From a virus, in the IMG/VR virus record IMGVR_UViG_3300025636_000512, positions 1-28,600 of that record: 28,600 bases of DNA; one strand, given 5' to 3'. Every line of letters starts with the position of its first letter. The first letter of the stretch is position 1. The notes under the pieces were generated by a model. The model saw only the letters and a list, made by a program, of their open reading frames with translations, was not told the DNA's origin and made no database searches. The position numbers were made by a program, and so were the translations under genes. Shown here piece by piece: positions 5,450 through 27,424 of the stretch.

Positions 5450-5455
5450 ATTAAA

Positions 5456-5812: not shown

Positions 5813-5819
5813 TATTTCC

Positions 5820-6577: not shown

Positions 6578-6604
6578 ATCTTTCTCCTTTAAATATATAC
6601 TTAC

Positions 6605-7123
6605 TTATCTCAAGAACTCTCGCCAGTCCAGGCCATACTGGATTGAATCGATTCTATGTACGCCAATTAAATACAACACATAACTTGCTACACTTGATCC
6701 ACGTCCTACGCCCCATACAATATCATTCTCACGCATATAGTCTACAAGATATATCATATAGCGTAATAGATTTCCCATGCCTCGTTTTTCAAACTCATTT
6801 AGTTCTTCAAAGCATCTTTCAAAGTATTCGCCTGGACATTTTTTAATAACATAATCACGTACATCCATGTTCTTGTATTCATCAGGCATAAACCATTCAC
6901 CTTGACATACACCGTCAAAAGTCTTTTGATCTACATCTAATGGAATATACTTTTGTAGTTTATCAAAGCCTTGTTCTTGCATTGCTTTGTTAAACATATC
7001 TATATCATCTGACTGCTCACACAGAACCACATGACACTTGTCAGCATGACCTGTGTAGATCATATCAATAAGATCTTTATTTGTAAATCGCGGGATACCA
7101 AGTTCATCAGTTTTCATAAGCAT
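6605..7123 (-). CDS. Stand-alone DnaE-like fragment (DNA polymerase III alpha), catalytic part absent
   Basis: The 172-residue protein matches the part of DnaE that leads into the palm. It begins with GIPRFTNKDLIDM, and its C-terminus reads VWGVGRGSSVASYVLYLIGV followed by HRIDSIQYGLDWREFLR. Bacterial DnaE has GPGRGSAAGSLVAY then an ID-P---L-FERFL block at this place. GRGS in the family lies in the palm near the incoming nucleotide. The gene stops just before the expected MPD(F/I)D(V/I)DF catalytic aspartates, and no continuing DnaE frame follows: the next gene begins 28 bases on. It is therefore a polymerase-derived domain without polymerase active site, about one seventh of DnaE, lacking also PHP, fingers and clamp-binding parts. 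ATG 7123 or 7117 are both possible starts. The frame is intact, so it is probably expressed; function unknown. Confidence 0.7.
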   Translation of the reverse strand: MLMKTDELGIPRFTNKDLIDMIYTGHADKCHVVLCEQSDDIDMFNKAMQEQGFDKLQKYIPLDVDQKTFDGVCQGEWFMPDEYKNMDVRDYVIKKCPGEYFERCFEELNEFEKRGMGNLLRYMIYLVDYMRENDIVWGVGRGSSVASYVLYLIGVHRIDSIQYGLDWREFLR

Positions 7124-7132
7124 ATACTTATT

Positions 7133-7372
7133 TTAACTTACATTAATTAAACTGTCAAGTCCTGTTTCACCATTTTCTTGATTTTGTTGGCGCTGATATT
7201 CAATAGCACGTCTAGTTTGTACTTCTTGTTGATAGATTTCTAAGAAGTTTGAGATTTGATGTTGTACTCCGGGATTTGTAGTCATAAAATATCTACGTTG
7301 GAGTACAACAATTTTGTCTTCTAATTCACTTACAGTAAAACCTGATAAGTTATCAACAAGAGGATTAAGCAT
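7133..7372 (-). CDS. Small helical phage protein, 80 aa
   Basis: The frame opens at 7408, but the ATG at 7372 comes one base after the stop of the 189-aa gene and yields a protein beginning MLNPLVDNLSGFTVSELEDK. It continues RRYFMTTNPGVQHQISNFLE and IYQQEVQTRRAIEYQRQQNQ, ending in a polar tail with DSLINV. It is predicted to be mostly alpha-helical with coiled-coil character, Gln/Arg rich in the second half. I recall this short sequence type in marine T4-like phages beside structural genes, but cannot assign a T4 gene number. It is the last gene of the structural block in reading order. Confidence 0.75.
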   Translation of the reverse strand: MLNPLVDNLSGFTVSELEDKIVVLQRRYFMTTNPGVQHQISNFLEIYQQEVQTRRAIEYQRQQNQENGETGLDSLINVS

Positions 7373-7373
7373 T

Positions 7374-7943
7374 TTATACAAATATGCCTTTATAGTCAGC
7401 ATATACAATATTTCCAGAATCGTGTGTCCAAAATTTAATAATAATCGGATCTGTAAGAGTAGTAATACTAACTTGTGCCGGAAAGTCTGCAGATTTTTTT
7501 ATTGTTCCGTTAGCAGTACTAAATGTAAGATTACGAACTGCGCTCTGGTCTGAGTGTATTTGTAAAGTTAATTCTGCATAGCGTCCGGTAGCTGGCCAAT
7601 TATCTAGTTCGATGTTAATATCATCTCCGCAAACTATTCTTTGATAGTCACCTTCAGAAAAATTAACAATAGCGTCTAATATATATGGTTCGTTATTTCC
7701 TTTATTAAGATACTTACTTGTGCATGTTTCTAAACTAGCATCAACTACAGCAGTTCCTGCAAAAGTAGTTGCTACGTCTTTTCTCACTCCAAAGTTTTTG
7801 AAATCAGAAAGTTCAGCATTTGCTACAGTTAATGCTGTTTTAATTATATTAAAGTTATCTCGAAACCCTTGTGTATCGTTATCTACACCAGCTACCGGAT
7901 ATGCTTCGTCTATTGTACTATATACTATATCGCTATCAGCCAT
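7374..7943 (-). CDS. Virion structural protein with shared N-terminal motif, 189 aa
   Basis: Residues about 20-40 (GVDNDTQGFRDNFNIIKTAL) resemble the N-terminal module of three other large structural genes here (pattern ND-T---(F/L)R--F--I--N). The rest is beta-rich and Gly/Asp/Thr-rich, ending with a hydrophobic WTHDSGNIVYADYKGIFV, with no enzyme motif. A perfect T4-type late -10 box TATAAATA lies 23 bases before the ATG and AGAGG serves as ribosome site. It is separated from the 1163-aa gene by 34 bases and abuts the 80-aa gene. It is most likely a baseplate or tail-tip component; the position within the virion is inferred. Confidence 0.75.
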   Translation of the reverse strand: MADSDIVYSTIDEAYPVAGVDNDTQGFRDNFNIIKTALTVANAELSDFKNFGVRKDVATTFAGTAVVDASLETCTSKYLNKGNNEPYILDAIVNFSEGDYQRIVCGDDINIELDNWPATGRYAELTLQIHSDQSAVRNLTFSTANGTIKKSADFPAQVSITTLTDPIIIKFWTHDSGNIVYADYKGIFV

Positions 7944-7965
7944 TTTAAATCCTCTTTGTTATATA

Positions 7966-7973
7966 TATTTATA
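7966..7973 (-). promoter_or_regulatory. T4-type late promoter -10 box, perfect TATAAATA
   Basis: On the minus strand the sequence reads TATAAATATATATAACAAAG, and the first eight bases equal the T4 late promoter consensus recognised with the phage sigma factor gp55. It ends 22 bases before the start of the 189-aa structural gene, in a 34-base gap, which fits a short leader with an AGAGG ribosome site. There is no host-type -35. The window's AT-richness makes chance matches possible, but position in a gap ahead of a virion gene supports it. Confidence 0.65.
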
Positions 7974-7977
7974 TTAA

Positions 7978-10900
7978 TTATATGTTGAATTGATAATTTG
8001 CGAATAAAATATATTGTTCTTCGCTATTCTCTTCTGTCCTTTGTAGAATATATCTATCAATATCAAAATTTATGCTCCGAAAGTCAAATCCATATGCTTT
8101 TATATTAGTTAATATTTTGTCTGCTGTACCTGGGTTACAATAACAAATTGGCACAGCACTAACATAACCTAACTCTTGTAATCCATTTTGTGAAGTACGC
8201 ATCCACAAAGGTAGATAATTTCTTTCATTTTTTCCTATTGATTTAATATTGTCTCGCATATTTGCTATATTTGAAATATACCGCACATTGTCAGTAGATT
8301 GATTAACATTTACAGCATTTGAATCAACCTTAATAGTATTAGTATTATTAGGTCGTAGTTTATATGGCTCACTATCTGTTAAAGTTAATGTTACAATAGC
8401 ACTACTATCATTACCTAACGTAACTAAAAAATCGTCATTATCAACATTTACATTGATGCTACCATTTTCTCTAGTTTCTATTTTTATTGTATCTAATTCT
8501 GAAAATACTAATTTAACAGTTTGTCTTCCATACACAGGTATTGCTGAATCACCATTAGTTGAATTAAAACTATCATCGGCCTTTTCATATGACATACTAT
8601 CGACTGTTATCTTGTTAGGTGTGTTAACAGTAAAACTTTTAGTAGTTTTGCTTATTTTTGAAGAATTGTTGTCGATGACATCGACATATATTACTTCGTA
8701 AACAGGCGTATTTGATAACGGATCAATTGCTACTGCTTTTTTAACTTCGCCTAAATTATAACGTGTACGTTTATGGTTCTTAGCAGCACTAGCTACAAAT
8801 TTATTAATACTAGCTGCTTCTATGCCTGCATATACTAACATTTTTAATTGTCTTTGTAATCCAAAGTTTGTATCATCTGCTCTGTAAATATATTCAGGAG
8901 GAAATACATCTGATTGCGAGACAAGTGTCGTATACCCTGCACGTTCATCTTTCTTTAACATAGGTTTAGCATATACATCAGAGTACAATGTATTATCTAA
9001 ATCTATGATATTTAATGTAAATTCACGTTCAATAGCAGTATAATTAAATCTATCTTTAGCTTCAACAACAAATTTAAAGTTTCTATCAAATGTAGTATCA
9101 CCCGGAAGTTTGCCATCGAAAGGCATTCTATAAGTACTATTATCAAATGTAGTTAGTCCCGATGTAGTGTTAGTAGCAAACTGAACAGCTTGTCCTTGAA
9201 TTTCGCCTTTGTAATTTAAATACATTCCGTTAGGCAATTTTCCTGATTTTAATGTATAAACCATAGCAGTATCCGGAACAGTAGTTTCTGCTACTAGTTT
9301 TATTGTACTCCTAAAATTAGCATTAATAGATCCTAAGTCTGCAGGAGTTATCCATTTAACATTACTATCAATTTCTCCAATTATCTTAATATCAAACGTT
9401 TTTTCTTTACTTGGTAATACAACTTCGTCGTCACTTACTACTGCAATATTTTTAGAAAATGCTTCTTTTCTAAAAAGTGCAATACCTATATTCCTGCCTG
9501 CGCTTAATTGATTTAATAAATTAGTATCAAGTTCTAGTCTATCTTCATTGTCTCGTATTAATCTTAAACCTATTTGTGTGCTATCGTTTGCTGTTGCAAA
9601 AAATTCTCTAATATTAGTTAAAATTCTAGATTTAGCTGTGCTTTTTAACAATATTCTCCATCGATTTTCTTCTAAAACATTAATGTATGCTACACCTCCA
9701 TATTCTGCTTCTAGTGCTTGTTTAGTTGCTGTTAGTCTATTAGACTCGGACATCAACGATAAACTTGCTGCTATTGGGGTCCAGTTCTCGGCTATAAATG
9801 TGATATTGTTAACATTGCCTTGTATTGTATGTGCAGTTGTGCATTTATATATAGCATCATCTCCGCCCGTGTCACTACTATAAATTGCATACTCTCCTAC
9901 ATAAAAATTACTATTTAATTCCATTTTACGTGGAGAGCTAGCTGGCAAAATAGGATCATTTTCTGCATCAGTTTGTTCGATTTCATATTCAATGTACGGA
10001 ACAATATTCTGTATTACATAAGATTCAGTTTCGCTAAAATTTAATGTTCGACCTTGATATTTTTCTTTACCGGCATCAGTTAACCGATTTACAAAAATAT
10101 AATCGTTGCCTGATTCTATTCCTCTACTTATTATTAAAGATATTTGCGGTGCTAAACTATCATTTATAAAGATTGTATCATACAAAGAATTTCTATTATC
10201 GATATTGGTGATTTCATATAATCTTCCATTAATTGAAATATTTCTATTTCTTAATTCTGCTAGATCGTTAATACCATCGTCTGTGTTATCATTAATCTTT
10301 CCTACTTTAAAACTAGTTGCTCCTAAAAGCGTATCTTCATAATAAGTTCCAAATATTGTTACAGTTTCTATATCGCCTTCAAATCTTGTAGCACGTACAG
10401 TAAATGAATAGTCTTGTGTAATAGCAGGCTGATACGGAATAATTCCTGTTATTTCGCCAGTATTGTTATCTAACGTTAGCCCGGGCGGCAGTTTACTAAC
10501 AGAACCATTATCATTAAAATCTTCTAATGTGTAAACAACAGTACCAGTTAATGTAGAATTATCAATAATATCTAAATAAATTGTTTGATAGTTGTTTGCT
10601 CGACGCATGCCTAAATTTCTTGGCGTTATCCATTGCGGAGTTCTAAGATGCGTAGTGTCAGCAGTAAATACACCTGAACTTGCAAACATTGTAGTATTAT
10701 CAGAACGTAGGAAATCATCACCTACTATATATATTTTAAAATCTCTTTTTATAAAAGTTTCACCGTCGGTTACAGTTACACTAAACGGATAATATCTATT
10801 TAATTTTCTTAAACTTGTAGTACGTTCAGAATAATCGTAATCTTGTGAATCATAAAAGAAGCTACTAAATCCATTGCCTGACGTAACTCCGTAATCTAAA

Positions 10901-11469
10901 ACAAAATCGCCATATGGTGCTGAATCATATCCACCTGAAACATATCTTTTATCAAGAGATAATAATGGTTCAGTTGTTCCTGATATTTTTCCAGTTTCTG
11001 ATAATACAATACCCGGTGGCAAGACTCCGTCACCATCGGCAATATAAAATTCTAATGTGTCGCCTGCTGGCAAATCTGTATCTAACGCTATTAATTGAAA
11101 ATCGATAATTTCATTATCGAGTATAAAAAATGTATTATTAGATCCTACCGGAAGTAGTCCGGTATCTGTAACCCATGCCGGGTCGTCTTTACCGACAACT
11201 ATTAATTTAAGAGTGCGATCGTCAATGTATCCTAAGTGTGTTGCTCTAAGAGTTACATTAAAAACAGTTTCACGAGATACTTCGTATGCTGTTCCCCGAA
11301 TTGAGTTCTCTTCAATTCTTAGTCCAGTTGGAAGACTGCCACTAATAATTTCTATTTCGACATCACTAATACCGTTTGAAATAGGTAATACTATATCAAC
11401 AGATGACCTTTCGATTAATGTAGCTATTTCTGTGCCGCTTTGTATATTCCAAAGTGATATTGATGACAT
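7978..11469 (-). CDS. Large tail/baseplate protein with putative Ig-like (He_PIG) domains, 1163 aa
   Basis: At least four putative-Ig (He_PIG/cadherin-like) repeats are visible by their LPxG(L/I/M) turns: LPTGL (46-50), LPPGI (150-154), LPPGL (327-331) and LPNGM (745-749), each followed by a G-(I/K)-x-G strand and an FxVxAxD/T strand. Between repeats, residues about 527-567 (ending CTTAHTIQ...ENWTPI) resemble small carbohydrate-binding-like modules. The C-terminus YILFANYQFNI is distinct and conserved-looking, perhaps an attachment or trimerisation end. There is no signal peptide, as expected for a virion protein. I recall proteins starting MSSISLWNIQSG in marine T4-like phages. It would be an adhesin or fibre-like baseplate element. 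A one-mismatch late promoter lies 20 bases upstream. Confidence 0.85.
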   Translation of the reverse strand: MSSISLWNIQSGTEIATLIERSSVDIVLPISNGISDVEIEIISGSLPTGLRIEENSIRGTAYEVSRETVFNVTLRATHLGYIDDRTLKLIVVGKDDPAWVTDTGLLPVGSNNTFFILDNEIIDFQLIALDTDLPAGDTLEFYIADGDGVLPPGIVLSETGKISGTTEPLLSLDKRYVSGGYDSAPYGDFVLDYGVTSGNGFSSFFYDSQDYDYSERTTSLRKLNRYYPFSVTVTDGETFIKRDFKIYIVGDDFLRSDNTTMFASSGVFTADTTHLRTPQWITPRNLGMRRANNYQTIYLDIIDNSTLTGTVVYTLEDFNDNGSVSKLPPGLTLDNNTGEITGIIPYQPAITQDYSFTVRATRFEGDIETVTIFGTYYEDTLLGATSFKVGKINDNTDDGINDLAELRNRNISINGRLYEITNIDNRNSLYDTIFINDSLAPQISLIISRGIESGNDYIFVNRLTDAGKEKYQGRTLNFSETESYVIQNIVPYIEYEIEQTDAENDPILPASSPRKMELNSNFYVGEYAIYSSDTGGDDAIYKCTTAHTIQGNVNNITFIAENWTPIAASLSLMSESNRLTATKQALEAEYGGVAYINVLEENRWRILLKSTAKSRILTNIREFFATANDSTQIGLRLIRDNEDRLELDTNLLNQLSAGRNIGIALFRKEAFSKNIAVVSDDEVVLPSKEKTFDIKIIGEIDSNVKWITPADLGSINANFRSTIKLVAETTVPDTAMVYTLKSGKLPNGMYLNYKGEIQGQAVQFATNTTSGLTTFDNSTYRMPFDGKLPGDTTFDRNFKFVVEAKDRFNYTAIEREFTLNIIDLDNTLYSDVYAKPMLKKDERAGYTTLVSQSDVFPPEYIYRADDTNFGLQRQLKMLVYAGIEAASINKFVASAAKNHKRTRYNLGEVKKAVAIDPLSNTPVYEVIYVDVIDNNSSKISKTTKSFTVNTPNKITVDSMSYEKADDSFNSTNGDSAIPVYGRQTVKLVFSELDTIKIETRENGSINVNVDNDDFLVTLGNDSSAIVTLTLTDSEPYKLRPNNTNTIKVDSNAVNVNQSTDNVRYISNIANMRDNIKSIGKNERNYLPLWMRTSQNGLQELGYVSAVPICYCNPGTADKILTNIKAYGFDFRSINFDIDRYILQRTEENSEEQYILFANYQFNI

Positions 11470-12239: not shown

Positions 12240-15200
12240 TTATGATACTGTAATATTACCTGTCATCGGACCGTGAATAAGACATTGATAGTAGTATGTT
12301 CCACTACTTCCTATAGTCCATTCAATAGTTGTTGTACCTTGTCCGGTAGTCCCACTTGCTTGATCGGCGGAGCCTGCGCCTGCTACAGTTTTAATATAAA
12401 CTGGGTGCGAACTTGATGTTCCTGCGTTTACATTAAATTGTACTTTGTCGCCACTATTAAACGAAAGTGCTGGATAGACACCGCTTACTGAACCACTTCT
12501 GTCTGTACCAGACAAAATATAATCAAATCCACTATTTGAAATATTAATAGTATAGTCCGGAGTAAATACAACCGGTGTGGTGCTTACATCATTAATTGTA
12601 ATCGGAGTAGTTGTATTAACAATAGTTCCACCAAATCCACCTGTTCTAATTTGAACTTGGAATGTTTCTGCGCCTTCTGTTGTAGAATCCGCGGTCGGTG
12701 TTACAGTAAATGACCCTGTGTCGTTTGTAATTGTAAAAATACCACTTGATGTACTAAAATCACCTGAGTTAGTTACTGTCCAATATAGTGGTGTTGAATC
12801 TGCCACATCTGTTGTAACAACATTAATTGTTAACGCACTACCTTCGCCAACATTATCTATTGCTGGATAAGCATAATAAGATGGTCCAATATTTTGACTT
12901 GAATCTGTAATACTAACATTGTCCGAGTCTTCGCCATTATCTAATGCTAGTGTTAGTGTGTCATTACCATCTGTAGTCCTGTCCTTTGCTATATTGATTT
13001 CAAGTTCAGAAGTATTTGAAATAATTGTAAAGTTTCCAGTTAGTGATATCGGTGTATCTGCTACATATCCTGATGAGCCAGCTTGAGTTGGGTCACCGAT
13101 GTCGCCGTCTTGGAATATGCTTCTGATTGTTGCAAGTGTTGGCTTGCTAATAACATCACCAATGTGTGTATTAAATAATGCATATCCCAATGGGTTATTT
13201 GCTAAAATACCTGATTGTGTACGCATATCGTCTGTCCATTCAGGATCAAGACTTCCGCCATCCCAAAGACTTGTATATTCAAACATACAAAAGTTTAACA
13301 AGTACAAGTATTCTTTTACTGCTACTTCATATTGCCCTGAGTCAGATTTCCAGTTAGGCGCATATCCGCTTGGATCCCATTTACCAGCATCAAAGGCTTG
13401 CGCCATTGCCGCATACAAATCACTAGTTGCCCAATCCGCACTTATTTGTGGATACATTTTTAATGTTGCTGCATCTAATCCATGCATGTGTAGTGTGTGG
13501 AATACGTGCTCAATAACTTCTTGTGCATCTTCGTCGCCTGTTCCAGGAGTACCACTACTGTTTAAGTACCATACCATATCGTTATTTACTGTTTCATCAA
13601 ACAATGGTTCTAATCCCCAACTACGTATACCTGCATCAGTTAAGAAGTTTGGTGTATAGTCGCCGCCTGCGCCTCTTGCTATTCTTTGTATAGTCGGCTT
13701 TGGTGAGTGATAAGATGTTGTATTACCAAGTAATGTTTCAATCAGTTGATTTTGTTTGTTCATATTAATACCTACACCTGACGGATTAGTAAATAATTGG
13801 AACATACGTGCTACTTTTTCAATAAACGCATCCGGAACTGCTATTTGTCCACCTACTGAACCTGCACTAACTAATCTAACACCAGATGTTCTAATTTCTC
13901 TAGTAAAGAAGTTACTACCATAACCTACAGTGTCTGCAACTGCAGAACTTGACCTTGGTCCTGTATCCATATCACTAGATGAAATACCTGTAATTGTATA
14001 TGGAACTAGTGTTGTGTCACCGACATTAGTTGTATTAAGTGTAAATGTTGTTTTCTCACCTTCTTGTAAAGAGGATGCACTTGTACTAAGTGAATATACT
14101 GCTGCGCCAGCGACAGTGTTTGCAGTGCTACCCATTCCACTATGATTAATACAGTAGTAATATAGTGTAGGAGCACCTGCTGCTACAGAAATTTGTGTGT
14201 ACGCTCCGGCAGTTCCAGCAGTACCAACTTTAGTTACTCCTATAGTATATTCTGTGCCACCGTCCCAAGTTCCGTTTGGAGTTTCGGAGAATAATAGTTG
14301 ATGTGTATTATTACTTGAATCTGATTGATCAAATCTATATGTTTGGCCTTCGATTAAGTTTAATACAGGACTAACTCCAGCTACTTCAGCAATATAATAT
14401 TTATTACCTGTTCCGTAAGAATTCTCTCCACTTGCAACTGTAACTGTGCGAGCTATAAAATCTGGTGTTAAGCTAGTATCATTAATTGTAATTGTGTTAG
14501 ATGTTCCGACTACTGTGCCGATTATGCTTCCTGTTCTTATACTAGCTATAAATGTTTCTGCACCTTCTGTAGTTGTATCAGCTGTTGGCGTTACAGTAAA
14601 CGAACCCGAATTACTTGTGATTGTAAAATTGCCGGTTGAGTCATCACCGAAGTCTCCGGAATTGCTAAGACTCCAATATAGTGTTGTTCCGTCATCTACA
14701 TTAGTTGTACTAACATTAAATTGTATAGGTTCGCCTTCATTTACACTATTAGCTGAAGAAACAATATATGTCGGAGCACCTACAGGAGTAAGACTTGTAT
14801 CGTTAATTGTAACACTTGTTGTTACATTTAAATCATCTAATGAAATTACGAACGACTCTGTACCTTCTGTAGTTATATCTGATGATATATTAACCGTAAG
14901 TGTTGCAGTATTACTTTGTATAGTAAAGTTTCCAGTTAAACTTGCATCAGATATATCAGAATTTGAAACACCTGAGATTGTATAAGGTATGTTCGTTCCG
15001 TTTATTACGTTTGTAGTTGCTAGAGTAATTACAAATGAAGCTCCCTCGTTAACTGAAGCTGCAGAACTAGACAATATGTATGTTGGTGTTAATACTACTT
15101 CATCTGATTGCGATCCTAGTTTAAGTTGAATTCCGCTATTAAATGTATTAAATACAAACTTATTTTCTCCTCCTATTAAACTTCGATACTGTGTATAATC

Positions 15201-16667
15201 ATTATCTAAGTTAGTAGTATATAGTAAATTTGATTTAGATTTAGATAAAATCCATGCTTTTGCTTCTGCAGGCGTTGCTCCGGGATTTGCTTGTAGATAT
15301 AATGCTGTTACTCCAGCAACTTGCGGCGCTGCCATAGAAGTTCCGGATATATTAGTTTGCTTAAAAATAGGGTCAGTAGCAAGATACGCTTGTGATCCTA
15401 CTCCCCATTTGTTTATTGTACTAGTGCAGCTCATTATATTTGTACCTGGTGCATATATATCGACGCCTGGGCCTGTTTCACTGTATAAAGCTTTTTGTTC
15501 AACATTAGTTGCATGTATTGCACTATCTATACTTCCGACGATTACTGCCTGATCATCGTATGGGCTAGATCCTCTATGATAATAAACAGTTCCGGAACTT
15601 GTTGTAGCATAATTATTATAGTCAGCACCGGTTACTTTATCAATTTTATGACTTCTATTTCCTGCTGCAATAAAAACATGTATTCCTGCATCGATCATTT
15701 CTTGTATATCTGTGTCAACAGACGGTACACGTACATTTGTTGTCCATCTATTATTAATTGCATCATATATGTTAAGTAAGCCGTAGTTGCTGCGCTCATT
15801 TGCAGTATCGATAGCACTACCTGAATACGTTAGTCCTTTATACCGTATAGTAGATACACTTGTATAACTAATACCATACCCCCAACTCATATTAACAACT
15901 GTAGGACGTTTTACACCCGTAGTAGGATCTATAGGTTTATTTTTATGCCATTCTTTAATTACATCAAAACAAAAGCCGCCTGAAACAGGAATGCCGCCGT
16001 TTGGGTCAGTAGGACCCTGTAAGCCTGCAACTTTAACTGCGTAAATTTTAGCATTTTTAGCCCAACCGTATGTTTTACCAGCTGCAATACCTGCGCAGTG
16101 TGTGCCGTGACCGTCATAATCTGTATAATGCCCAGGCGGCATTGATCCAACTAATCCACTAGCAGTGTACCAATCAAGTTCTTCTACTCTGCTATTTCCA
16201 AGAGTATCTTGAAATTCTGGATGATCTATTTGTAATCCGCTATCTTGTATTACAATGTCAATTCCGCTTCCATCTAGTGTATAATCATAAGTACCTTCAG
16301 TAAAATTACCGTTGTATGTATTGGTATCTTCATTTATTCTTTTTAATCCCCAGTTTATAAAGACGCCGCTGTCGCTGGCAGTCTTTGTAAAGTCACCTGT
16401 TTGGGATGCTACATGACCTATTACAAGATCAGATTGTTGTTCCGGTGGAATTTCTACAGCCATTACCCTTGCATCAGCACGAAGAAATGATGCTTCTGCA
16501 TCAGTGAGCATGTAATGAGTATTTCGTTGAGAAGCGGGCCTAGCGTGTACAATACTAACTGCTCTTTTGGGAATCGCTCCGGCGCCTGTGATATCAATCA
16601 TTTCTTGATCAAATTTTTGATAGTTGACATTTTTTTGCAACGTAACAATGTATTCTTTTTCGCTCAT
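12240..16667 (-). CDS. Virion-associated subtilisin with Calx-beta, cupredoxin-like and inserted His-rich domains, 1475 aa
   Basis: Residues 5-75 look like an inhibitor I9-type propeptide. Residues about 128-485 are an S8 subtilase with all key residues: D142 in IVIQDSG, H187 in DGHGTHCAG, N337 in FIAAGN and S444 in SGTSMAAPQVAG. Then follow Calx-beta-like repeats with SVNEG starts at about 530-628, 633-735, a split one (857-906 and 1203-1258) and 1263-1366. Two cupredoxin-like domains lie at 738-854 and 1370-1475, each with the His...Cys-x2-His-x2-Met ligand set. The split repeat holds a ~300-residue domain with EHVFHTLHMHG (1053-1063). There is no signal peptide, so it is likely carried on the virion. 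It sits between fibre-like genes and is probably a tail-associated protease that acts on host surface proteins or matures neighbouring fibres; the target is unknown. The S8 call is very firm, virion location inferred. Confidence 0.9.
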   Translation of the reverse strand: MSEKEYIVTLQKNVNYQKFDQEMIDITGAGAIPKRAVSIVHARPASQRNTHYMLTDAEASFLRADARVMAVEIPPEQQSDLVIGHVASQTGDFTKTASDSGVFINWGLKRINEDTNTYNGNFTEGTYDYTLDGSGIDIVIQDSGLQIDHPEFQDTLGNSRVEELDWYTASGLVGSMPPGHYTDYDGHGTHCAGIAAGKTYGWAKNAKIYAVKVAGLQGPTDPNGGIPVSGGFCFDVIKEWHKNKPIDPTTGVKRPTVVNMSWGYGISYTSVSTIRYKGLTYSGSAIDTANERSNYGLLNIYDAINNRWTTNVRVPSVDTDIQEMIDAGIHVFIAAGNRSHKIDKVTGADYNNYATTSSGTVYYHRGSSPYDDQAVIVGSIDSAIHATNVEQKALYSETGPGVDIYAPGTNIMSCTSTINKWGVGSQAYLATDPIFKQTNISGTSMAAPQVAGVTALYLQANPGATPAEAKAWILSKSKSNLLYTTNLDNDYTQYRSLIGGENKFVFNTFNSGIQLKLGSQSDEVVLTPTYILSSSAASVNEGASFVITLATTNVINGTNIPYTISGVSNSDISDASLTGNFTIQSNTATLTVNISSDITTEGTESFVISLDDLNVTTSVTINDTSLTPVGAPTYIVSSANSVNEGEPIQFNVSTTNVDDGTTLYWSLSNSGDFGDDSTGNFTITSNSGSFTVTPTADTTTEGAETFIASIRTGSIIGTVVGTSNTITINDTSLTPDFIARTVTVASGENSYGTGNKYYIAEVAGVSPVLNLIEGQTYRFDQSDSSNNTHQLLFSETPNGTWDGGTEYTIGVTKVGTAGTAGAYTQISVAAGAPTLYYYCINHSGMGSTANTVAGAAVYSLSTSASSLQEGEKTTFTLNTTNVGDTTLVPYTITGISSSDMDTGPRSSSAVADTVGYGSNFFTREIRTSGVRLVSAGSVGGQIAVPDAFIEKVARMFQLFTNPSGVGINMNKQNQLIETLLGNTTSYHSPKPTIQRIARGAGGDYTPNFLTDAGIRSWGLEPLFDETVNNDMVWYLNSSGTPGTGDEDAQEVIEHVFHTLHMHGLDAATLKMYPQISADWATSDLYAAMAQAFDAGKWDPSGYAPNWKSDSGQYEVAVKEYLYLLNFCMFEYTSLWDGGSLDPEWTDDMRTQSGILANNPLGYALFNTHIGDVISKPTLATIRSIFQDGDIGDPTQAGSSGYVADTPISLTGNFTIISNTSELEINIAKDRTTDGNDTLTLALDNGEDSDNVSITDSSQNIGPSYYAYPAIDNVGEGSALTINVVTTDVADSTPLYWTVTNSGDFSTSSGIFTITNDTGSFTVTPTADSTTEGAETFQVQIRTGGFGGTIVNTTTPITINDVSTTPVVFTPDYTINISNSGFDYILSGTDRSGSVSGVYPALSFNSGDKVQFNVNAGTSSSHPVYIKTVAGAGSADQASGTTGQGTTTIEWTIGSSGTYYYQCLIHGPMTGNITVS
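13050..13964 (-). other. Domain nested within a Calx-beta repeat of the protease gene
   Basis: The repeat at residues 857-906 ends YTITGISSSDMD, and the next part of the same repeat, ISLTGNFTIISNTSELEI, comes only at about 1207. In the uninterrupted repeat (560-590) the two halves are joined directly: YTISGVSNSDISDASLTGNF. So residues about 902-1206 are an insertion in one loop. The insert has a Zn-site-like segment EHVFHTLHMHG (1053-1063), a KEYLYLLNF helix (1118-1126) and NNPLGYALF (1158-1165). I recall similar EH-x2-H-x2-H domains in secreted proteins of marine bacteria, without known function. Confidence 0.65.
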
Positions 16668-18571: not shown

Positions 18572-18704
18572 TATTATTACCCTTTAGAAAAGTTACTCTT
18601 AATCTATTTGATGAAGAAACTACTTGGCGCGGCTGTTCATCCTTACTAGTTATCACTGTTGCTTTACCTTGTGATTTTAAATTATTAACTGTACTATTTT
18701 TCAT
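18552..18704 (-). CDS. Possible small ORF, 50 aa, bridging two structural genes
   Basis: An ATG at 18704 overlaps the stop of the 2906-aa gene as TAATG, and the frame runs to a TAA at 18552-18554, overlapping the next gene by 20 bases. The protein begins MKNSTVNNLKSQGKATVITS and contains QPRQVVSSSNRLRVTFLKG. It fills the whole 132-base gap between two genes. It is polar and basic with no known motif. The stop-start overlap supports translation; the lack of any recognised family and the short length argue for caution. Confidence 0.45.
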   Translation of the reverse strand: MKNSTVNNLKSQGKATVITSKDEQPRQVVSSSNRLRVTFLKGNNNGKTNS

Positions 18705-21700
18705 TAGTGCTTTCCTACTACAATTTCAATTACGCCGCGCTCGGTGTCTAGTTTATCTTCCAATGCCTTACCAATTACACTGCCTACTGTTGGATTATTA
18801 TTAACAATTGCATAACCTGCAATGCCTGCTGATACTAACATATCACCTTTAGTAACTTTTCCAACAACCTTACATGGTACACGCCCTTGTAGTGCTATTG
18901 CAGTAACATTATCACCTTCACAGTGTGAGTTCATTAAGTGTGCCGGATTAGTAGATACAACACCAGCAACTCTATGATCGCCTTTTTTAGTTGTTTCTGT
19001 TACTTCGGCATCGCCACCAAATATTAGCACCGTGCCTGCTTGATAAGTTTTATCTCCTAAATAATTCTCTGCCAAGTCAGCGTAGTATGATTCAGTAGCA
19101 GTGCCACGGAATAATGTTGCATAAACATTGTTGTATTTCTTAGTTGCACTACCAATATTATAAACATTATCTTCATCTGGAACAACACCTGTTTTACTAA
19201 AGATAAAGGGTTTTGCACTTAGGCCAGTTCCAGTATCACCTGTAACAATCGAAATTACACCCGATGCTTCAGTACCGCTACCGATACCAATGCCAGTAGT
19301 TGCATTACTTCTTTCGCCTGCTGCTTCAATAAAGTTAGTATAAATCCAATCAACACCTAATACTGGTTGACTAGTTAAGCTAACATTAGCAGTTTGCGCC
19401 AGTCCTTCTGAAATTCCAGTACCGCCTATATTAACACTGCCTGAGAATTCAGCAGTTACTCGTCCGCTTGGATTGCCAGTACCGTCGCCGACTGCGGTTA
19501 ATACCGTTCCTTGTGCAGGTGTTTTAATTTGTAATGTAGTATTACCAGCGCCAGTTAATGACATAACTTCGTATCCAGATGCACCAAGTATTAATGAATT
19601 AACAATAATACTACCATTTGCATCTGTTTTAACAATTGAATTAACTTCTCCTGTTTTAGTAACATTACTGATACCGTATGTTCCTGCGCCAGTCTTAATA
19701 AGTGCTTCGCCTGAATCAGATGCTGCTAATATTGTACTAGTAAAGTTACTATCTAATAGTCCGCCGCCTTCGTCAATAACAGTAGCAAATGGTACTGCAC
19801 TAATTGCTCCAGTACCGTCGACACTACGGCCAAGTACAGTATCAGTAGCAACATTTTCAATATCTGCTAATGGAACTGATCCCGGTCTTATCGAAATCCA
19901 TCCATTATCACTTGTAAATCTTCCACTATCAAATGATGCAACTCCTAAGTCGCCTTGTGTGATACCAGTTGCATTTGCTCTAGTTGTTCCAGGGTTTAGT
20001 AACAATTTACTTTGCTGTATATTCGCATCTGCTTTAACTTTAGCATCTACAATTATATTATCCTTAATAACAAAATTTGCTGCTGTGTATCTAGATGTTA
20101 CTTGATTGCCACTAAGTGTAACAATTCTATCAGTAGTTAATGATATTTCGTTGTCTGCGCCTGCAACAGCATTTGCCCATTCTGAAACTGGACCATCTAC
20201 TACAGTACCTTGTGTGCCGCCCGGAGTTGTTACAACATCTGAAGTATTAAAGTCAATTACTGATGTTGGAATATATACAATTGAAGTTAAGTTTCCTTCG
20301 TATCCTACTAATGAACTGGCATCTACAAGTGTACCAGTTGCTCCTGATATTGTTCCAGTAATAGTATCACCGCGTTCAAACGGTCCTGCAACAATTGTAT
20401 CAGCATTTAAGAATAATTTCTTATATCCTGTTGTAACTAATTGTTGACCTACTGCTGGCAGGGCAAGATCTTTATACACTAGTCCATTTATTTCAGTATC
20501 TCTAAAATCAGGTATAGTGTCATTATTTGCTTGAGCACTGTCTGCATAAGTCTTAGTTGCTGCATCTGAGCCTGACACTGGAGCTGATAAGTTCGTAATT
20601 GTATTGCCAGCTGCGTTCAAATCATCTGTCATTGGCACAGAACCGTTTGGAGCAAGTACACCTGGTCCAATTTTGTTAGCAACTGGTGTTCCGTTAACAT
20701 CATATCCTAAGCGTCTGTTAACGTATCCACGTACAGCACTTTCTGTAGGTACTGTATCTGATGCATTGTCAGTCATTGCTGTATCTGTACTAAATTCAGT
20801 AATAACAACACCACGCTTAAAGCCTAGTCCGTCAACGTCTGATAGTGCAAGACTTGCACTAAATGTAACTGTACCAGTGCCTTGATCAACACTGAAGAAA
20901 CGTCCTACTCTAAAGATACCGTTTTGGTCTGTACTTACATAGAACACACGACCTTTTGTACGCTCTTCAACTTCTTTAGCTTGATCTGATTCTCTAGGTA
21001 GACCAAAAATAACATTTGGATAATTACTTTGATTAAATCCGCCTGTACCAACATCAAGGAAATCATGTGCTGTAGCACGACATGTACTAATATTAATAGT
21101 TACACTACCAATTGCTCCGCTTTTTAAACCAGCTCTCAATGTTACAGTTTCATTTCCTAATACTACTGGACCTGCCAAACCTGCAACTGCTGATACATTA
21201 ATATCATCGCCTACTTCAGTTATATCAACAAGTCCGTATGCATTATCTTCTGCTGGCGCAACGATAGCGCCAAGTGCATCGACACCTCTATAGTTGTGTA
21301 CATAATGCTTTTTACCATTCCATGATATAATTGGTGCTGGCTGTAATGATGTTGGCGTCCATCCAAGGGGTCTATTGCCTTCTGGAGTTTTTTGGTTGTT
21401 GTTTAGTCTATAAATTTCATTAGCGTCTACAGTTGCTTGTACAGCAATTACATCATCACCAATAGTAGCTCCTTGTGTAGTTCCTCCTACACCTGCATGT
21501 GTAGTTAATGCTGCGCTAGTTCTATCTACAATTAATCTAATATAATCATATGTTTCGTCGAACCCTGCTTGTGCAACATTATCTTCTAATGTATTACCTA
21601 TACTATCTGAAGTTAAGAAACTTATCGAACGATAAACTATATCAGGATTTTCGTCAAACACAACAGCAGTACTCGGACGTATAGTTAATACATCAGGTCT

Positions 21701-24700
21701 TGCTATATCATTAAGAATATGTGTTTGGTTACGTCTATAGTTAATAAACGTTCCCCAACCTACTGCTTCTAATAATCCGTTAGTGCTATATCTTACATCA
21801 CTAGTTGAGAAATTTAATTTGTAAACAATACCGCTATATTTTGGAGTTGTTTCTTCAACGAACGGTGTTCCTGTAACTGTTACCTCAGTAATTCCGCCCG
21901 TGCCATTTACCGCACTAACTGTAATAACAGCATCGTGTGTAACATCTGTTCCACTTAGTGCTGAGCCCAAAACAGTATATGTATCACCAATTGCATGTCC
22001 ACTGCCGCCATTTGTTATTGATGCAGTATAACCATATGTAATAGTTTTATATAAACTAAATATTGCTCCTATAGGCGTACCTGGAGACGATAAGGTTGCT
22101 GGAATAGTAGTATTAATTAATGGATATTCGCCAACATGATGTGGCATTACTTCAACATTAGCAGCTTCGTATCTTGCAAACGAAGGGCGGCCTGGATGAA
22201 AAATATCAAACTCTGATCTATTACTAGGCGGATCTAACATATCATATACATGTATAGATAACTGCTCTTGCGCATTTCCGTAACCTCTAGTATCAACACT
22301 AATTGGTACACTATTTGCGCCGAATCCTGCGCCACCGGTAATTTCTAATTCGTTAATTGTATCAAATGATCCATTTACATTAGTTAAGTAAAGATACCTT
22401 GATCCACTTGCACTACCATCAGATACTTGCGCAGTATCAACTCTTACAGTGCCTGTTGCACCAGTAACTAATTGCGTAATTTGTGTAGTTGCAGTTGTTT
22501 CAATATTTCCAGTTAGTGTTAATATAAGATCTGCATCAAATGTTTTCGCTGGCAGTGTCATATCTTGTGCTAATACAATAGTATCAGGAATTTCGTTTGG
22601 ATCTGACCCTTCTGCAACTAGTCCATATTCACCATAACAGCTTGAGCCTGTAACACTTCGAATCTCTGATCCGTTTTTAGCATAGTAACTTGTCCAGCAA
22701 TAGTATGTAAACATACTAACCATTTCTGATAATGCGCCATTGACACAAATAAGTCCGTAACCTAAGTCATTAACTTGTGTAAAGTCATTCCCTAGCATAC
22801 TTCTGTTACCAGCTGTCTGTAGTGTAACTCCTAAAGGTGCGTTAACACTTTGAACAGTTCTGTGAGCAATTAATGCAGTATTTGCATCTATATCATTTTT
22901 TGCATCAACTCTTTCAGATGGTGCCCAGGAAGTAACAGGATATATTGTTAAAGGCAATGCCGAAAGAGTGTTACTATTTATAGCACCTATAATAGCATCC
23001 ATCAATATAGATATTTCAGTTGTTTCGGCCGCTGTTGCTGCGGTTCCACTTACATCTTGGCTAGGATATGTTTCTACTATTATTTGTTCAACAATAGATT
23101 TTAATTCTGTAAACATAGCAACATATATAGGCTTTTGAGTAGCTGTTAAAATACTTACTCCATCATCAAAATAGAATCTTGCAAAAGTTTTTATAGCAGT
23201 GTTGCCGCCATATTGAATGTCATAACTTAATGCATCAACAATATAATTAATTTCTGTTAGTAACTCTCCTTGTACATAACCAGCTGCTGCATTATACGTA
23301 GGATATGTAGTAGTAAGCCATGTATCAATTTCAGTTCCGATAAAGGTTCTGTTTGTTTGTAATTGTTCACGTGCAAATCTTTTGTTACTATCAACTCCTG
23401 GATCTGAGTATACAATAGCATCAGCATTAGCAGTTCCGTTTGTGATTATATCAATAACTTCATCAAATCCTGCATTTGAATCAGCTAATGATGCTGCACT
23501 ATCAGCAACCTCAGGTAACGCTGCAACTTCAGCTTTCGCTACTCCGATTGCTGTAGTTGTTTGTGTTAATTGGTCATCAATCACTACATTTGCATATGAT
23601 CGACGATATGCTAATCCGTTTGTTACACTGTTATAGTTTGTTCCAAATGCAACATCGTAACCGATACCTTCTAAGATATAACGTGTGTCTCTATCACACT
23701 TATCTTCATTAAATTCAAATGTTCCAACAGTATCTAAATTAATTCCTGTAATTAATGAACTAGTAGTTCCAGTGAAGCCGTTACCGTCATTTGAGTTACG
23801 GTCTAATATTAATTCAGCAGTACCAAAATCAGGATCATATTGTGAAACGGCGTTAATTTGGAAACGGCGACCGTCTATATAAAACGCACTAGGTACTTGC
23901 GGCTTACGTATAAACAATCCTTGATTAGGTAAACTTTTAACTTTTAATCGGAAATTAGAACTGTCTACTTTTTCAACAACTTGTACACTACTATTACCTG
24001 TAAATGCATCAATAAACATGCCGCCACTAAAAACTTGCTTATTCTGTGATTTAGAAAAACTTGATCCTACTTGAATATATGGCGACTTAGTTAAAACTTG
24101 ACCTTCTGGATCAAGTGTACACATAAATCCTCCGTGCCCCTGTACAGTAATATTACTTACACGGGTTGCATCGTTCATTAAAAATACATCCATTTGATCA
24201 TTTCTTAATGGCGGATTGTAGTTTGCATTAAATGCAAACGTAATAGTACCAATTAACAATTGTACAGTTTCTTGCGGACCTTTAACTTCGGTCCAATAAC
24301 TGTTTACTTCTTGAGCATCTAATATAGCGTTTGATGTGTTTTCAGTATTACATTGGTAATATACAGTTAAACCTGCATCGATTGTTTTTACTACATTTCC
24401 CACACGATAAAGTTTATCAGCTACCCAATCATCCGGTTCTGCAGATCCATTAAACAAGTCAGCAGTTGGATAATCTAAACTATCACCCAGTACTGGAGGA
24501 GTAACTCCAGTTAATAATGAAGTAGCAAGTGTGTATATATAGTTCATTCCGGCTATACATCCTGCTTCATTAATTTCACCTAATGACCCTTCATAAAATT
24601 CACCTTGGGTTTCTAATGCAAATTCATTGCCACCGCCTCTTAAATCTTTAATAAGAGAATCTACAATGTATCCTGTGTCTCTTTTACTTTTAACTTCACT

Positions 24701-27424
24701 ATAAGCACCTACCATCGCAGGATAATTTGCATTGATATATTCTACAACTTGTTCTTGAATAAATTCTTTATTATCAATCAGTGTTAGTGCCGCTGTTTCC
24801 CACTTACCGATATTTCTATATCCAGAACCGACATCTTTTAATCTACTTGGATCACGCAAGTAATGATATCCAAAGTATCCATCAACCTTTCCTGTTGATG
24901 GATTGATATATTCAACACCATTAGGTATACTGTCTATTTTAATAATTACATTTGGTGCGCCGCCTGATCCTAATTGCGAATCAGGTATAGTAATTAAATC
25001 ACCCGCTTGGAAATCTTTTCCTTTATTCGGTAAGCTAACATCTGTTATTGCTCCGATCGAATCAATTGTAACAGAGAAAATTGCATCACTACCAAGACCA
25101 GTTGAAGTATAGTCTTGATCTGTAATTGTATAAACTCCAGCCGTGCGTGATCCATCTGCAGGTGTTGTAACACTTATTGTACCAATTTCACTACGACCTA
25201 ATACTAACCCATCAAATTCTCTATCTCTATAAAAGAAAGTACCAGCGTAAGGTGATTGCGAAATACGATCTTTAGGACGTATTAGGCAACGTCTAAATTC
25301 GTCCCCTAAAATTGTTACGTTTGCTGGAACACGTATAGGATAATCTTCGTAATATATTCCTGATTCGACAAGTAATGTAACTTGTGTTTCTCTTACAATG
25401 TTGCCGTATTCTAATTGTTCTCCTGGCAAAAAGTTAATAGGTTCAAGTAACTGTATTTCAATTTGGTCTACGTCAGAAGCTGGAGACAATCCTCCTGAAC
25501 CGGTTTTATATTCAATAATTCTACCTATCGCTCCGGAATCTTTACCACGTACTACTTTACCCGGAATAATATCTGTGTTTTCCGGGTTAGCTTGATCAAT
25601 AAATCCAAAATTACCATTGTTAAGATTAATTTTATATACTGTATTACCGTCAACTACTGTTGGAGCTTGTAAAGGTCCGTCATCAATAATTTGAAGTATT
25701 AATTCAAATTTTCCGTCAATAGCAGTATCAGCAGCTGGATCAGGTTGATTAACCTGAACGTCATCAACTACTTCTTCAAAAATTTGGGTAACACGATTTT
25801 GGTATGTTGTAGCAACCGGAGTACCTGCAATAATGTTTTGTACAATTGTTCTAGCATATTCTATACCTGCCACTGTTTCAATTTTTTGACTACCAATTGC
25901 TTTTTGTGCGCTTGGATTAGAATAATATCTAAATCCGCTCCAGCGAGACAGATAGTTTGCGTTATTTCCTAGTAATGCATCTAAAGTAACAGCTTCAAGA
26001 ATATAACCTATATCTCTTTCACATATCTCTTCGTCGTATGATCCTACAAAGTCTGGATATGTTGCATTAATATACGATGTTACTTCTTTCTGAATAAACT
26101 CTTTATTTTTTATAATTCTTGATCTTGCATTAGTACGTAGTATTCCGCCGATTGCGTCTGTAGGATCAGCACCAGCTGTTATAATATTAGGAACACTTTC
26201 GCCATTATTGTATGTCATGGTCTGCATGTATGGACCAGGTTCATACGGAGCAGTAATAATAACTTCTTCTGCTTTCCGTGCCGCTGCATTTATTGTTCTA
26301 TATGCGTATGCAGGATTTCGTCCTTCTCTACCTCGAGGAGTATTTGTTTGTCTATCGTCGCCATTTTGTGCAACATAAAGATTAACTTCACTAGATGCAG
26401 CAAGGTTGTCTACATATAATTTTGTTGCAGCCTGTAAATCGTCTGTACTGTTAGGTAAACCAAATCCACTTAATTCACCTGGATGGTCTGACAAGTTTAA
26501 TACACCTGTCATAGTATCGCCTTGTCGCCTTACTATGCTCTTACGTGGTACAGCAACATTATCTAACCAAAAGCCTTCTAACTCACTGTCGTATGCTGCA
26601 TCAGTAATTGTAAATGTACCTGTGCCGCCTGACAACGCTATATTATTTAAGGAGTTTGTAAGTGCGTCTTGTTCTGTTTCAAATAATCTAATAGTAGTTG
26701 TATCAACTATGCGTATATGAACAATACCATTTGCTGGAATACCAAACGGATTAGATCCTGTTGATTTGAATACAAATGGAGCGCCATTATATGCTTCAGA
26801 TAATCCATGGGCTGATGCAAATGTTAAATTTTGCTGTAATATTCCGCTAGCAGTAAATACATATCCTGCTGCACTTGCAGGCTCGTTGTCTAGACGTAGT
26901 CCGCCGCCCGATACTTCTTTTGTTTGATAATTTCTATCTCCGTAATTTTTATCAATTACTAATGAACCCAAATCATAGTTTGTTCCGTATGTAGAATTAA
27001 ATTCTTCAAGTGCTGCTTGTGTAGTTGCTACATTAACAATTGGCTGTGCTGATGCATTCATTGGCCCTGACAATGTCGGTGTAGGGTCATTCGAAACTTT
27101 AGAAACAAGTTGTTTAATAATAAGTTTTCCATCAACACTAAAATCAAAACCAATCGTATCTGTTGTTCCGTCTAATGCATTATTAGATGCAAGTTGTAAA
27201 AAATTTATACCGGATCCGTTGCTTTTAACAGACGGTATCTTGTTTTCATTGCCTTCATATGTATTAGGAGTATCACTTAAATCCGTATATGATATCTGTC
27301 CACCAATACCAAATACAGCATATAATTCTTGAAAGTTTTCGTTTACTTTACGAAACGACTCACGTATGCTGTCGCCAGTGCCGTCATTACCTTCAATGCC
27401 GATATCAATTTGTTGCTTTGCCAT
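18704..27424 (-). CDS. Giant tail-fibre/adhesin-like virion protein, 2906 aa
   Basis: It opens with the shared N-terminal module (GNDGTGDSIRESFRKVNENF, residues 12-31). A fibre repeat GDTMTGVLNL...DLQAATKLYVDN lies at 302-340. A pectin-lyase-like beta-helix seems to start at 348 (LYVAQNGDDRQTN, YAYRTINAAARKA) and resume at about 682 (VTLLVESGIYYEDYPIRVPA, ILGDEFRRCLIRP). Four helical repeats lie between about 439 and 1450. Residues 1000-1047 resemble a carbohydrate-binding-like module, and 1538-1612 (SMLGNDFTQVNDLGYGLICV, TYYCWTSYYAKNGSEIRS) form a conserved-looking core. A second DAATKTYADSAQ fibre repeat lies further on. The end (2753-2906) is NIGSATKKYNNVYA, then YYADLAENYL and a compact beta domain RVAGVVSTNPAHLMNS...GRVPCKVVGKVTKGDML, like a C-terminal chaperone or capping domain. 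Probably a main host-recognition or baseplate protein; no enzymatic residue set was identified. Confidence 0.85.
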   Translation of the reverse strand: MAKQQIDIGIEGNDGTGDSIRESFRKVNENFQELYAVFGIGGQISYTDLSDTPNTYEGNENKIPSVKSNGSGINFLQLASNNALDGTTDTIGFDFSVDGKLIIKQLVSKVSNDPTPTLSGPMNASAQPIVNVATTQAALEEFNSTYGTNYDLGSLVIDKNYGDRNYQTKEVSGGGLRLDNEPASAAGYVFTASGILQQNLTFASAHGLSEAYNGAPFVFKSTGSNPFGIPANGIVHIRIVDTTTIRLFETEQDALTNSLNNIALSGGTGTFTITDAAYDSELEGFWLDNVAVPRKSIVRRQGDTMTGVLNLSDHPGELSGFGLPNSTDDLQAATKLYVDNLAASSEVNLYVAQNGDDRQTNTPRGREGRNPAYAYRTINAAARKAEEVIITAPYEPGPYMQTMTYNNGESVPNIITAGADPTDAIGGILRTNARSRIIKNKEFIQKEVTSYINATYPDFVGSYDEEICERDIGYILEAVTLDALLGNNANYLSRWSGFRYYSNPSAQKAIGSQKIETVAGIEYARTIVQNIIAGTPVATTYQNRVTQIFEEVVDDVQVNQPDPAADTAIDGKFELILQIIDDGPLQAPTVVDGNTVYKINLNNGNFGFIDQANPENTDIIPGKVVRGKDSGAIGRIIEYKTGSGGLSPASDVDQIEIQLLEPINFLPGEQLEYGNIVRETQVTLLVESGIYYEDYPIRVPANVTILGDEFRRCLIRPKDRISQSPYAGTFFYRDREFDGLVLGRSEIGTISVTTPADGSRTAGVYTITDQDYTSTGLGSDAIFSVTIDSIGAITDVSLPNKGKDFQAGDLITIPDSQLGSGGAPNVIIKIDSIPNGVEYINPSTGKVDGYFGYHYLRDPSRLKDVGSGYRNIGKWETAALTLIDNKEFIQEQVVEYINANYPAMVGAYSEVKSKRDTGYIVDSLIKDLRGGGNEFALETQGEFYEGSLGEINEAGCIAGMNYIYTLATSLLTGVTPPVLGDSLDYPTADLFNGSAEPDDWVADKLYRVGNVVKTIDAGLTVYYQCNTENTSNAILDAQEVNSYWTEVKGPQETVQLLIGTITFAFNANYNPPLRNDQMDVFLMNDATRVSNITVQGHGGFMCTLDPEGQVLTKSPYIQVGSSFSKSQNKQVFSGGMFIDAFTGNSSVQVVEKVDSSNFRLKVKSLPNQGLFIRKPQVPSAFYIDGRRFQINAVSQYDPDFGTAELILDRNSNDGNGFTGTTSSLITGINLDTVGTFEFNEDKCDRDTRYILEGIGYDVAFGTNYNSVTNGLAYRRSYANVVIDDQLTQTTTAIGVAKAEVAALPEVADSAASLADSNAGFDEVIDIITNGTANADAIVYSDPGVDSNKRFAREQLQTNRTFIGTEIDTWLTTTYPTYNAAAGYVQGELLTEINYIVDALSYDIQYGGNTAIKTFARFYFDDGVSILTATQKPIYVAMFTELKSIVEQIIVETYPSQDVSGTAATAAETTEISILMDAIIGAINSNTLSALPLTIYPVTSWAPSERVDAKNDIDANTALIAHRTVQSVNAPLGVTLQTAGNRSMLGNDFTQVNDLGYGLICVNGALSEMVSMFTYYCWTSYYAKNGSEIRSVTGSSCYGEYGLVAEGSDPNEIPDTIVLAQDMTLPAKTFDADLILTLTGNIETTATTQITQLVTGATGTVRVDTAQVSDGSASGSRYLYLTNVNGSFDTINELEITGGAGFGANSVPISVDTRGYGNAQEQLSIHVYDMLDPPSNRSEFDIFHPGRPSFARYEAANVEVMPHHVGEYPLINTTIPATLSSPGTPIGAIFSLYKTITYGYTASITNGGSGHAIGDTYTVLGSALSGTDVTHDAVITVSAVNGTGGITEVTVTGTPFVEETTPKYSGIVYKLNFSTSDVRYSTNGLLEAVGWGTFINYRRNQTHILNDIARPDVLTIRPSTAVVFDENPDIVYRSISFLTSDSIGNTLEDNVAQAGFDETYDYIRLIVDRTSAALTTHAGVGGTTQGATIGDDVIAVQATVDANEIYRLNNNQKTPEGNRPLGWTPTSLQPAPIISWNGKKHYVHNYRGVDALGAIVAPAEDNAYGLVDITEVGDDINVSAVAGLAGPVVLGNETVTLRAGLKSGAIGSVTINISTCRATAHDFLDVGTGGFNQSNYPNVIFGLPRESDQAKEVEERTKGRVFYVSTDQNGIFRVGRFFSVDQGTGTVTFSASLALSDVDGLGFKRGVVITEFSTDTAMTDNASDTVPTESAVRGYVNRRLGYDVNGTPVANKIGPGVLAPNGSVPMTDDLNAAGNTITNLSAPVSGSDAATKTYADSAQANNDTIPDFRDTEINGLVYKDLALPAVGQQLVTTGYKKLFLNADTIVAGPFERGDTITGTISGATGTLVDASSLVGYEGNLTSIVYIPTSVIDFNTSDVVTTPGGTQGTVVDGPVSEWANAVAGADNEISLTTDRIVTLSGNQVTSRYTAANFVIKDNIIVDAKVKADANIQQSKLLLNPGTTRANATGITQGDLGVASFDSGRFTSDNGWISIRPGSVPLADIENVATDTVLGRSVDGTGAISAVPFATVIDEGGGLLDSNFTSTILAASDSGEALIKTGAGTYGISNVTKTGEVNSIVKTDANGSIIVNSLILGASGYEVMSLTGAGNTTLQIKTPAQGTVLTAVGDGTGNPSGRVTAEFSGSVNIGGTGISEGLAQTANVSLTSQPVLGVDWIYTNFIEAAGERSNATTGIGIGSGTEASGVISIVTGDTGTGLSAKPFIFSKTGVVPDEDNVYNIGSATKKYNNVYATLFRGTATESYYADLAENYLGDKTYQAGTVLIFGGDAEVTETTKKGDHRVAGVVSTNPAHLMNSHCEGDNVTAIALQGRVPCKVVGKVTKGDMLVSAGIAGYAIVNNNPTVGSVIGKALEDKLDTERGVIEIVVGKH
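23075..26110 (-). repeat. Four diverged copies of a helical repeat within the 2906-aa protein
   Basis: Protein-level repeats follow the pattern (N)KEFIQxEVxxYINxxYP--VG-Y-E---RD-GYI-(D/E)A---D---G-N. Copies lie at residues about 439-535 (KEFIQKEVTSYINATYP, CERDIGYILEAV), 885-973 (KEFIQEQVVEYINANYP, KRDTGYIVDSL), 1237-1300 (FNEDKCDRDTRYILEGIGYD, lacking the first helix) and 1358-1450 (RTFIGTEIDTWLTTTYP, EINYIVDALSYDIQYGGN). Similarity is in protein rather than DNA, so the duplications are old. The copies interrupt the beta-helix entry, suggesting insertion domains projecting from the shaft. Confidence 0.75.

Follow-up and report, generated by a model that had tools for sequence, protein, structure and literature searches.

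A tail-region phage protein with a complete subtilisin active site and a predicted propeptide

Why does a phage keep a subtilisin gene among its tail genes, and what would the encoded enzyme cut? The question is raised by the window, the whole stretch of DNA analysed here (28,600 nucleotides, positions 1 to 28,600 of IMG/VR record IMGVR_UViG_3300025636_000512). In it, the open reading frame complement(12240-16667) runs on the minus strand from an ATG at 16667 to a stop at 12240 and encodes 1475 amino acids, with AGGAA as its ribosome-binding site. The subtilisin (S8) part occupies the first third only of this protein and is followed by adhesin-like repeats and modules (Table 1). The gene is spaced by 13 nt from its upstream and by 10 nt from its downstream neighbour, and these neighbours carry tail-fibre PHROGs and a T4_gp9_10_N domain, in line with the tail location and short gaps described in the first-pass annotation. 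A signal peptide was not apparent when the protein was read by eye, which agrees with the same source.

Table 1. Positions of the S8 gene, its encoded parts and its neighbours in the window
Feature	Position	Strand	Evidence or remark
Tail-region protein, 1475 aa	12240..16667	-	Propeptide, S8 protease, Calx-beta-like and cupredoxin-like modules, nested domain
Predicted propeptide, residues 1-90, I9-type by structure	16398..16667	-	AF2 model aligned from residues 1-3 to proenzymes 3afg, 3whi, 2z2z, 1r6v, 3wiu; Pfam I9 unmatched
Linker, residues 91-102, beside family-conserved QTGDFTKTTSDSG stretch; predicted propeptide-mature junction	16362..16397	-	pLDDT <50, conservation, mature enzymes align from residue 100
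Mature subtilisin/proteinase K-like catalytic domain, residues 100-512	15132..16370	-	Pfam S8 at 15231-16271; best Z 37.4, 2.3 Å over 275 residues to 5wsl (predicted model)
Catalytic D142 codon	16242..16244	-	Motif and family conservation
Catalytic H187 codon	16107..16109	-	Motif and family conservation
Oxyanion-hole N337 codon	15657..15659	-	Motif and family conservation
Nucleophile S444 codon	15336..15338	-	Motif and family conservation
Calx-beta-like repeat 1, residues 527-628	14784..15089	-	Pfam search, repeat alignment
Calx-beta-like repeat 2, residues 632-735	14463..14774	-	Repeat alignment
Cupredoxin-like module 1, residues 738-856	14100..14456	-	Alignment with module 2
Calx-beta-like repeat 3, residues 856-902 and 1203-1262, split by nested domain	12882..14102	-	Halves align jointly as a single repeat
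Nested domain, residues ~905-1205, invariant EHxxHTxHxH at 1053-1062, possibly zincin-like	13053..13955	-	
Calx-beta-like repeat 4, residues 1262-1368	12564..12884	-	Repeat alignment
Cupredoxin-like module 2, residues 1368-1475	12243..12566	-	Alignment; weak plastocyanin match, E 0.0037
Upstream tail-fibre-like gene, 395 aa	16681..17868	-	phrog_9729 tail fiber, E 9e-8
Downstream gene, T4 gp9/gp10 N-terminal domain, 239 aa	11510..12229	-	Pfam PF07880, E 4.7e-6
Conserved Ig-like (He_PIG) tail protein, 1163 aa	7978..11469	-	C-terminal part fused to S8 in Atu_ph07 and Phosso
Giant fibre gene, 2906 aa, operon shared with S8	18704..27424	-	phrog_9851 and other tail-fibre families

The protein is confirmed as a true S8 protease with a complete active site, far beyond chance. 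Pfam Peptidase_S8 (PF00082) matches residues 133-479 (E 4.8e-32, 111.9 bits versus a cut-off of 21.8), and the four residues that had been proposed from the letters alone are found at the proposed positions in canonical contexts: D142 in VIQDSG, H187 in GHGTH, N337 in AAGN and S444 in GTSMAAP. A single IMG/VR scan yielded 36 relatives with 35-60% identity, and the D, H, N and S are unchanged in 36/36 full-length family members, in an alignment that includes four cyanophage homologues and spans a divergence of up to about 70%. Pairwise dN/dS for close pairs lies at 0.04-0.17, and the enzyme is under strong purifying selection. Confusion with PF04984, a “tail sheath subtilisin-like domain” that is not proteolytic, was ruled out, as the match in the window is to PF00082. 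An Acinetobacter “phage” MD-2021a S8 gene was set aside since its contig bears ordinary bacterial genes. D403, the equivalent of the calcium-site residue D200 of proteinase K, is kept in 13 of 32 family members only; because of this poor conservation we do not claim calcium binding. One related contig (L029) carries four tandem S8 genes (4242-11266), the first of which encodes a possible pseudoenzyme, judged from its glutamate in place of the catalytic aspartate and its SHATH in place of GHGTH.

An AlphaFold2 model of the propeptide and S8 domain, built from a 32-sequence alignment, reached a pLDDT of 88 and a pTM of 0.92 and shows the subtilisin fold. In this predicted model, the mature part (from residue 100) superposes on the keratinase 5wsl and aqualysin 4dzt with Z 37 and 2.1-2.3 Å over 271-275 residues. 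At least five proenzymes, among them unautoprocessed pro-subtilisin E and Tk-subtilisin, superpose on the model from residues 1-3 onwards (339-366 residues, Z 31-33, r.m.s.d. 3.7-4.4), and the N-terminal domain is therefore predicted to be positioned as a propeptide over the enzyme, as expected if it caps the active site. The first-pass annotation had described this region as I9-like. This description holds for the predicted structure and fails at the level of sequence: Pfam Inhibitor_I9 leaves the window protein unmatched and finds one of 32 family members at E 0.78. The linker of residues 91-102, which has low pLDDT and lies beside the conserved QTGDFTKTTSDSG consensus, is in the model a plausible region of self-cleavage.

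Downstream of the protease, the two halves of Calx-beta-like repeat 3 (856-902 and 1203-1262) align as a single repeat once the intervening piece is removed. This piece, a nested domain of ~300 residues, recurs with 60-85% identity in other phages, in proteins that are otherwise dissimilar (the S-RIM2 wedge protein is one), and by this comparison the domain is mobile. It is also 61-64% identical in lipoprotein-like genes of marine Actinomycetota (contigs L100-L103); its presence at this identity in both phages and Actinomycetota suggests gene transfer. The motif EHxxHTxHxH is invariant in 29 viral copies, and the two Actinomycetota copies that were compared keep it except for the last histidine. 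The HExxH zinc motif is absent from the domain, and a PDB sequence search with it gave nothing significant. Its model (pLDDT 72) has zinc metallopeptidases as all of its best 26 structural matches, with Z at most 6.4, so that on structural grounds the domain is possibly zincin-like. The two cupredoxin-like modules (14100-14456 and 12243-12566) have the Cys-His-Met spacing of plastocyanins and occur in cyanophage tail proteins as well. A weak AGS_C Pfam match at residues 635-673 was rejected, being under the cut-off and inside a Calx-like repeat.

The C-terminal modules of the S8 proteins are swapped between phages, and stand-alone relatives of ~520 residues have no adhesin modules at all, so attachment through such modules cannot be universal. 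Marine relatives keep a tight tail operon around the S8 gene, which in most relatives begins less than 40 nt after another gene, a fibre or tail gene wherever that neighbour can be named. The neighbouring fibres vary among the phages that retain S8. The product of the second gene downstream, the He_PIG protein, is 43-59% conserved across marine relatives and carries an invariant PLWMRT motif close to its C-terminal end; its family has no PHROG, and a PDB profile search with it gave no match. A relative of this protein is fused to S8 in Atu_ph07 (L104, 13851-17606) and in Phosso (L105, 13515-17378). Elsewhere in the window, two small minus-strand genes (503-850 and 5820-6233) match a ferredoxin family and head-morphogenesis/GroES-like co-chaperonin families.

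From its sequence, we take the window to be a piece of a marine jumbo myophage genome with affinity to the Rak2-like phages. Its clamp loader is 52.6% identical to that of PA5oct-type Pseudomonas jumbo phages and 46% to that of Phosso, and clamp-loader, MazG and S8 genes lie in one region both in Atu_ph07 and within the 28.6-kb window. Related contigs reach 237-328 kb. We do not favour a cyanophage origin, since photosystem genes were found neither in the window nor in 11 related contigs and the clamp loader is closest to those of Pseudomonas/Sinorhizobium jumbo phages.

S8 genes at a tail locus are already named in records of cultured cyanophages and are grouped in phrog_9158 and phrog_3677. 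The kind is therefore known; what is new in the window protein is its architecture. A literature search, with most subscription journals outside its scope, found no paper testing a phage tail subtilisin. The S8 gene of S-H38 and S-CREM1 is flanked by a gp9-like and a gp8-like baseplate gene. In S-RIM2, the gp9-wedge-gp8 locus is present and the wedge core it has in common with S-H38 is intact, with S8 absent. By this comparison of loci, the S8 gene is an accessory module that is missing from related phages with an equal baseplate locus.

Is the protein part of the virus particle? The first-pass annotation had called it probably a virion component, and mass spectrometry of virions from two cultured phages that encode S8 homologues lends support, by way of annotation tags and gene counting. 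The S-SCSM1 homologue (SSCSM1_228) is annotated with the tag “virion protein”, of which we counted 48 in S-SCSM1; the S-SCSM1 paper gives 45 proteins detected by mass spectrometry in CsCl-purified virions (PMC9602691). The virion preparations also contained non-structural enzymes, for which the authors allow carry-over (PMC9602691). Because the tags cover three non-structural proteins named there as detected and are absent from several structural genes (e.g. SSCSM1_17, 211 and 215), they seem to mark detection by mass spectrometry. For Atu_ph07, genes were numbered from ClpA (gp292) and checked at NUDIX (gp303), the clamp loader (gp312) and the tail fibre (gp327), which makes the S8 gene gp329. 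According to the Atu_ph07 paper, most of the virion proteins identified by mass spectrometry are encoded in three gene clusters, of which CDS 284-329 is one (PMC6102473), and gp329 would be the last gene of that cluster. The tags (48 versus 45) and the gene counting, read against these two papers, point to the S8 homologues of S-SCSM1 and Atu_ph07 being in virions. We conclude that the tail of the virus particle probably bears a proteolytic enzyme.

We lean towards a tail- or baseplate-attached, self-capped proteinase K-like subtilisin that digests outer-surface proteins of the host at adsorption, and consider this reading rather probable. The protein would be made in the host cytosol with its I9-like propeptide, which would both aid folding and block the active site. 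It would then be mounted on the tail via its C-terminal Ig/Calx-beta/cupredoxin modules and its He_PIG partner. After assembly or release, the propeptide would be removed by a cut near residues 85-100, and the protease thus uncovered could digest host outer-surface proteins during adsorption. The analysis itself establishes the sequence, the fold (as a predicted model), the conservation of the active site, the operon and the fusion, and published mass spectrometry of relatives supports a place in virions; catalytic activity, the timing of activation and the host-surface target are what we infer here. The varied lectin, Ig and cupredoxin attachments and the tandem duplication in L029 fit a host-facing diversification.

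The first-pass annotation had named two possible substrates, host surface layers and the neighbouring giant fibres. The second would make the enzyme a morphogenetic protease that cleaves these fibres, or the modules fused to it, while the tail is being assembled, and that may stay on as a passenger. The S8 gene does sit among giant fibre genes, the absence of a signal peptide would mean synthesis at the site of assembly, and the predicted self-cleavage site requires at least one autoprocessing event. Yet the gp9-wedge-gp8 locus of S-RIM2 does without S8, so wedge assembly is independent of it, and this accessory status argues against a role in fibre processing. Moreover, the enzyme resembles broad-specificity secreted proteases, and the adjoining fibres differ among phages that retain it. 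We therefore regard assembly processing as unlikely; of the two predicted roles, cutting at the host surface fits better.

Less likely still is a late, non-structural enzyme of lysis or host takeover, soluble or freed at lysis, that merely co-purifies with particles. The carry-over allowed for the S-SCSM1 preparations would permit it (PMC9602691). Against it stand the fusions of S8 (with tail modules in the window protein, with an Ig-like tail protein in Atu_ph07 and Phosso), the usual coupling to an immediately upstream gene (a tail gene where nameable), and the absence of both a signal peptide and a holin neighbour. That the S8 fold is a scaffold or adhesin without catalysis is very improbable. 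The one L029 paralogue without the catalytic aspartate would fit it, but the other members of the family, deeply diverged as they are, all keep D, H, N and S, and the propeptide is retained.

Could the host-surface protease represent a wider class? Known cell-opening phage tail enzymes mostly cut sugars or peptidoglycan. Tentatively, marine and jumbo phages may carry on their baseplates a propeptide-capped entry protease of the subtilisin class that is armed after assembly, a protein-digesting counterpart of the polysaccharide depolymerase tailspikes, to which the window lineage would add, in the same chain, a metallopeptidase-like domain nested in an adhesin repeat; we rate this as possible and somewhat doubtful. 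If true, a family of conserved self-capped tail proteases that spans cyanophages, freshwater phages and jumbo phages would extend the repertoire of tail enzymes to protein digestion, would be relevant to the passage of phages through S-layers and other surface proteins, and would make phage-borne proteases available as tools. The cultured carriers S-SCSM1, S-CREM1, S-H38 and Atu_ph07 allow direct testing.

Among the nearest named systems are the S-CREM1 “peptidase”, the S-H38 “subtilisin-like serine protease” and SSCSM1_228 of S-SCSM1 (Kyanoviridae), which share the propeptide and S8 core with the window protein (37, 39 and 30% identity, respectively, over ~500 residues), lie in tail or baseplate gene clusters and likewise show no signal peptide. 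They differ in genome type and in their C-terminal modules, which are other ones (LamG lectin domains in S-SCSM1) or none. The Rak2-like jumbo phages Atu_ph07 (gp329) and Phosso (XYS97278) also have S8 near a tail gene cluster, which in Atu_ph07 includes clamp-loader (gp312) and MazG genes as in the window. In both, however, S8 and a He_PIG-like Ig protein form one chain (1251 and 1287 residues), whereas the window encodes them separately. The S-RIM2 baseplate wedge protein (SWTG_00062, 1713 residues) has residues 755-1204 of the window protein in common at 53% identity, including the nested domain; unlike the window protein it has no S8, and its modules are inserted in a wedge protein, the core of which S-H38 encodes as a gene of its own. 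This S-RIM2 protein (L005, 10270-15411) corresponds to the 701-residue protein of S-H38 plus ~1000 residues (YHYH and nested domain) after residue 88. Aqualysin I, Meiothermus keratinase and proteinase K (S8A) share the catalytic fold of the predicted model (Z 35-37, 31-36% structural identity). These enzymes are secreted with a signal peptide and are soluble, whereas the phage S8 protein has no apparent signal peptide and is joined to tail modules.
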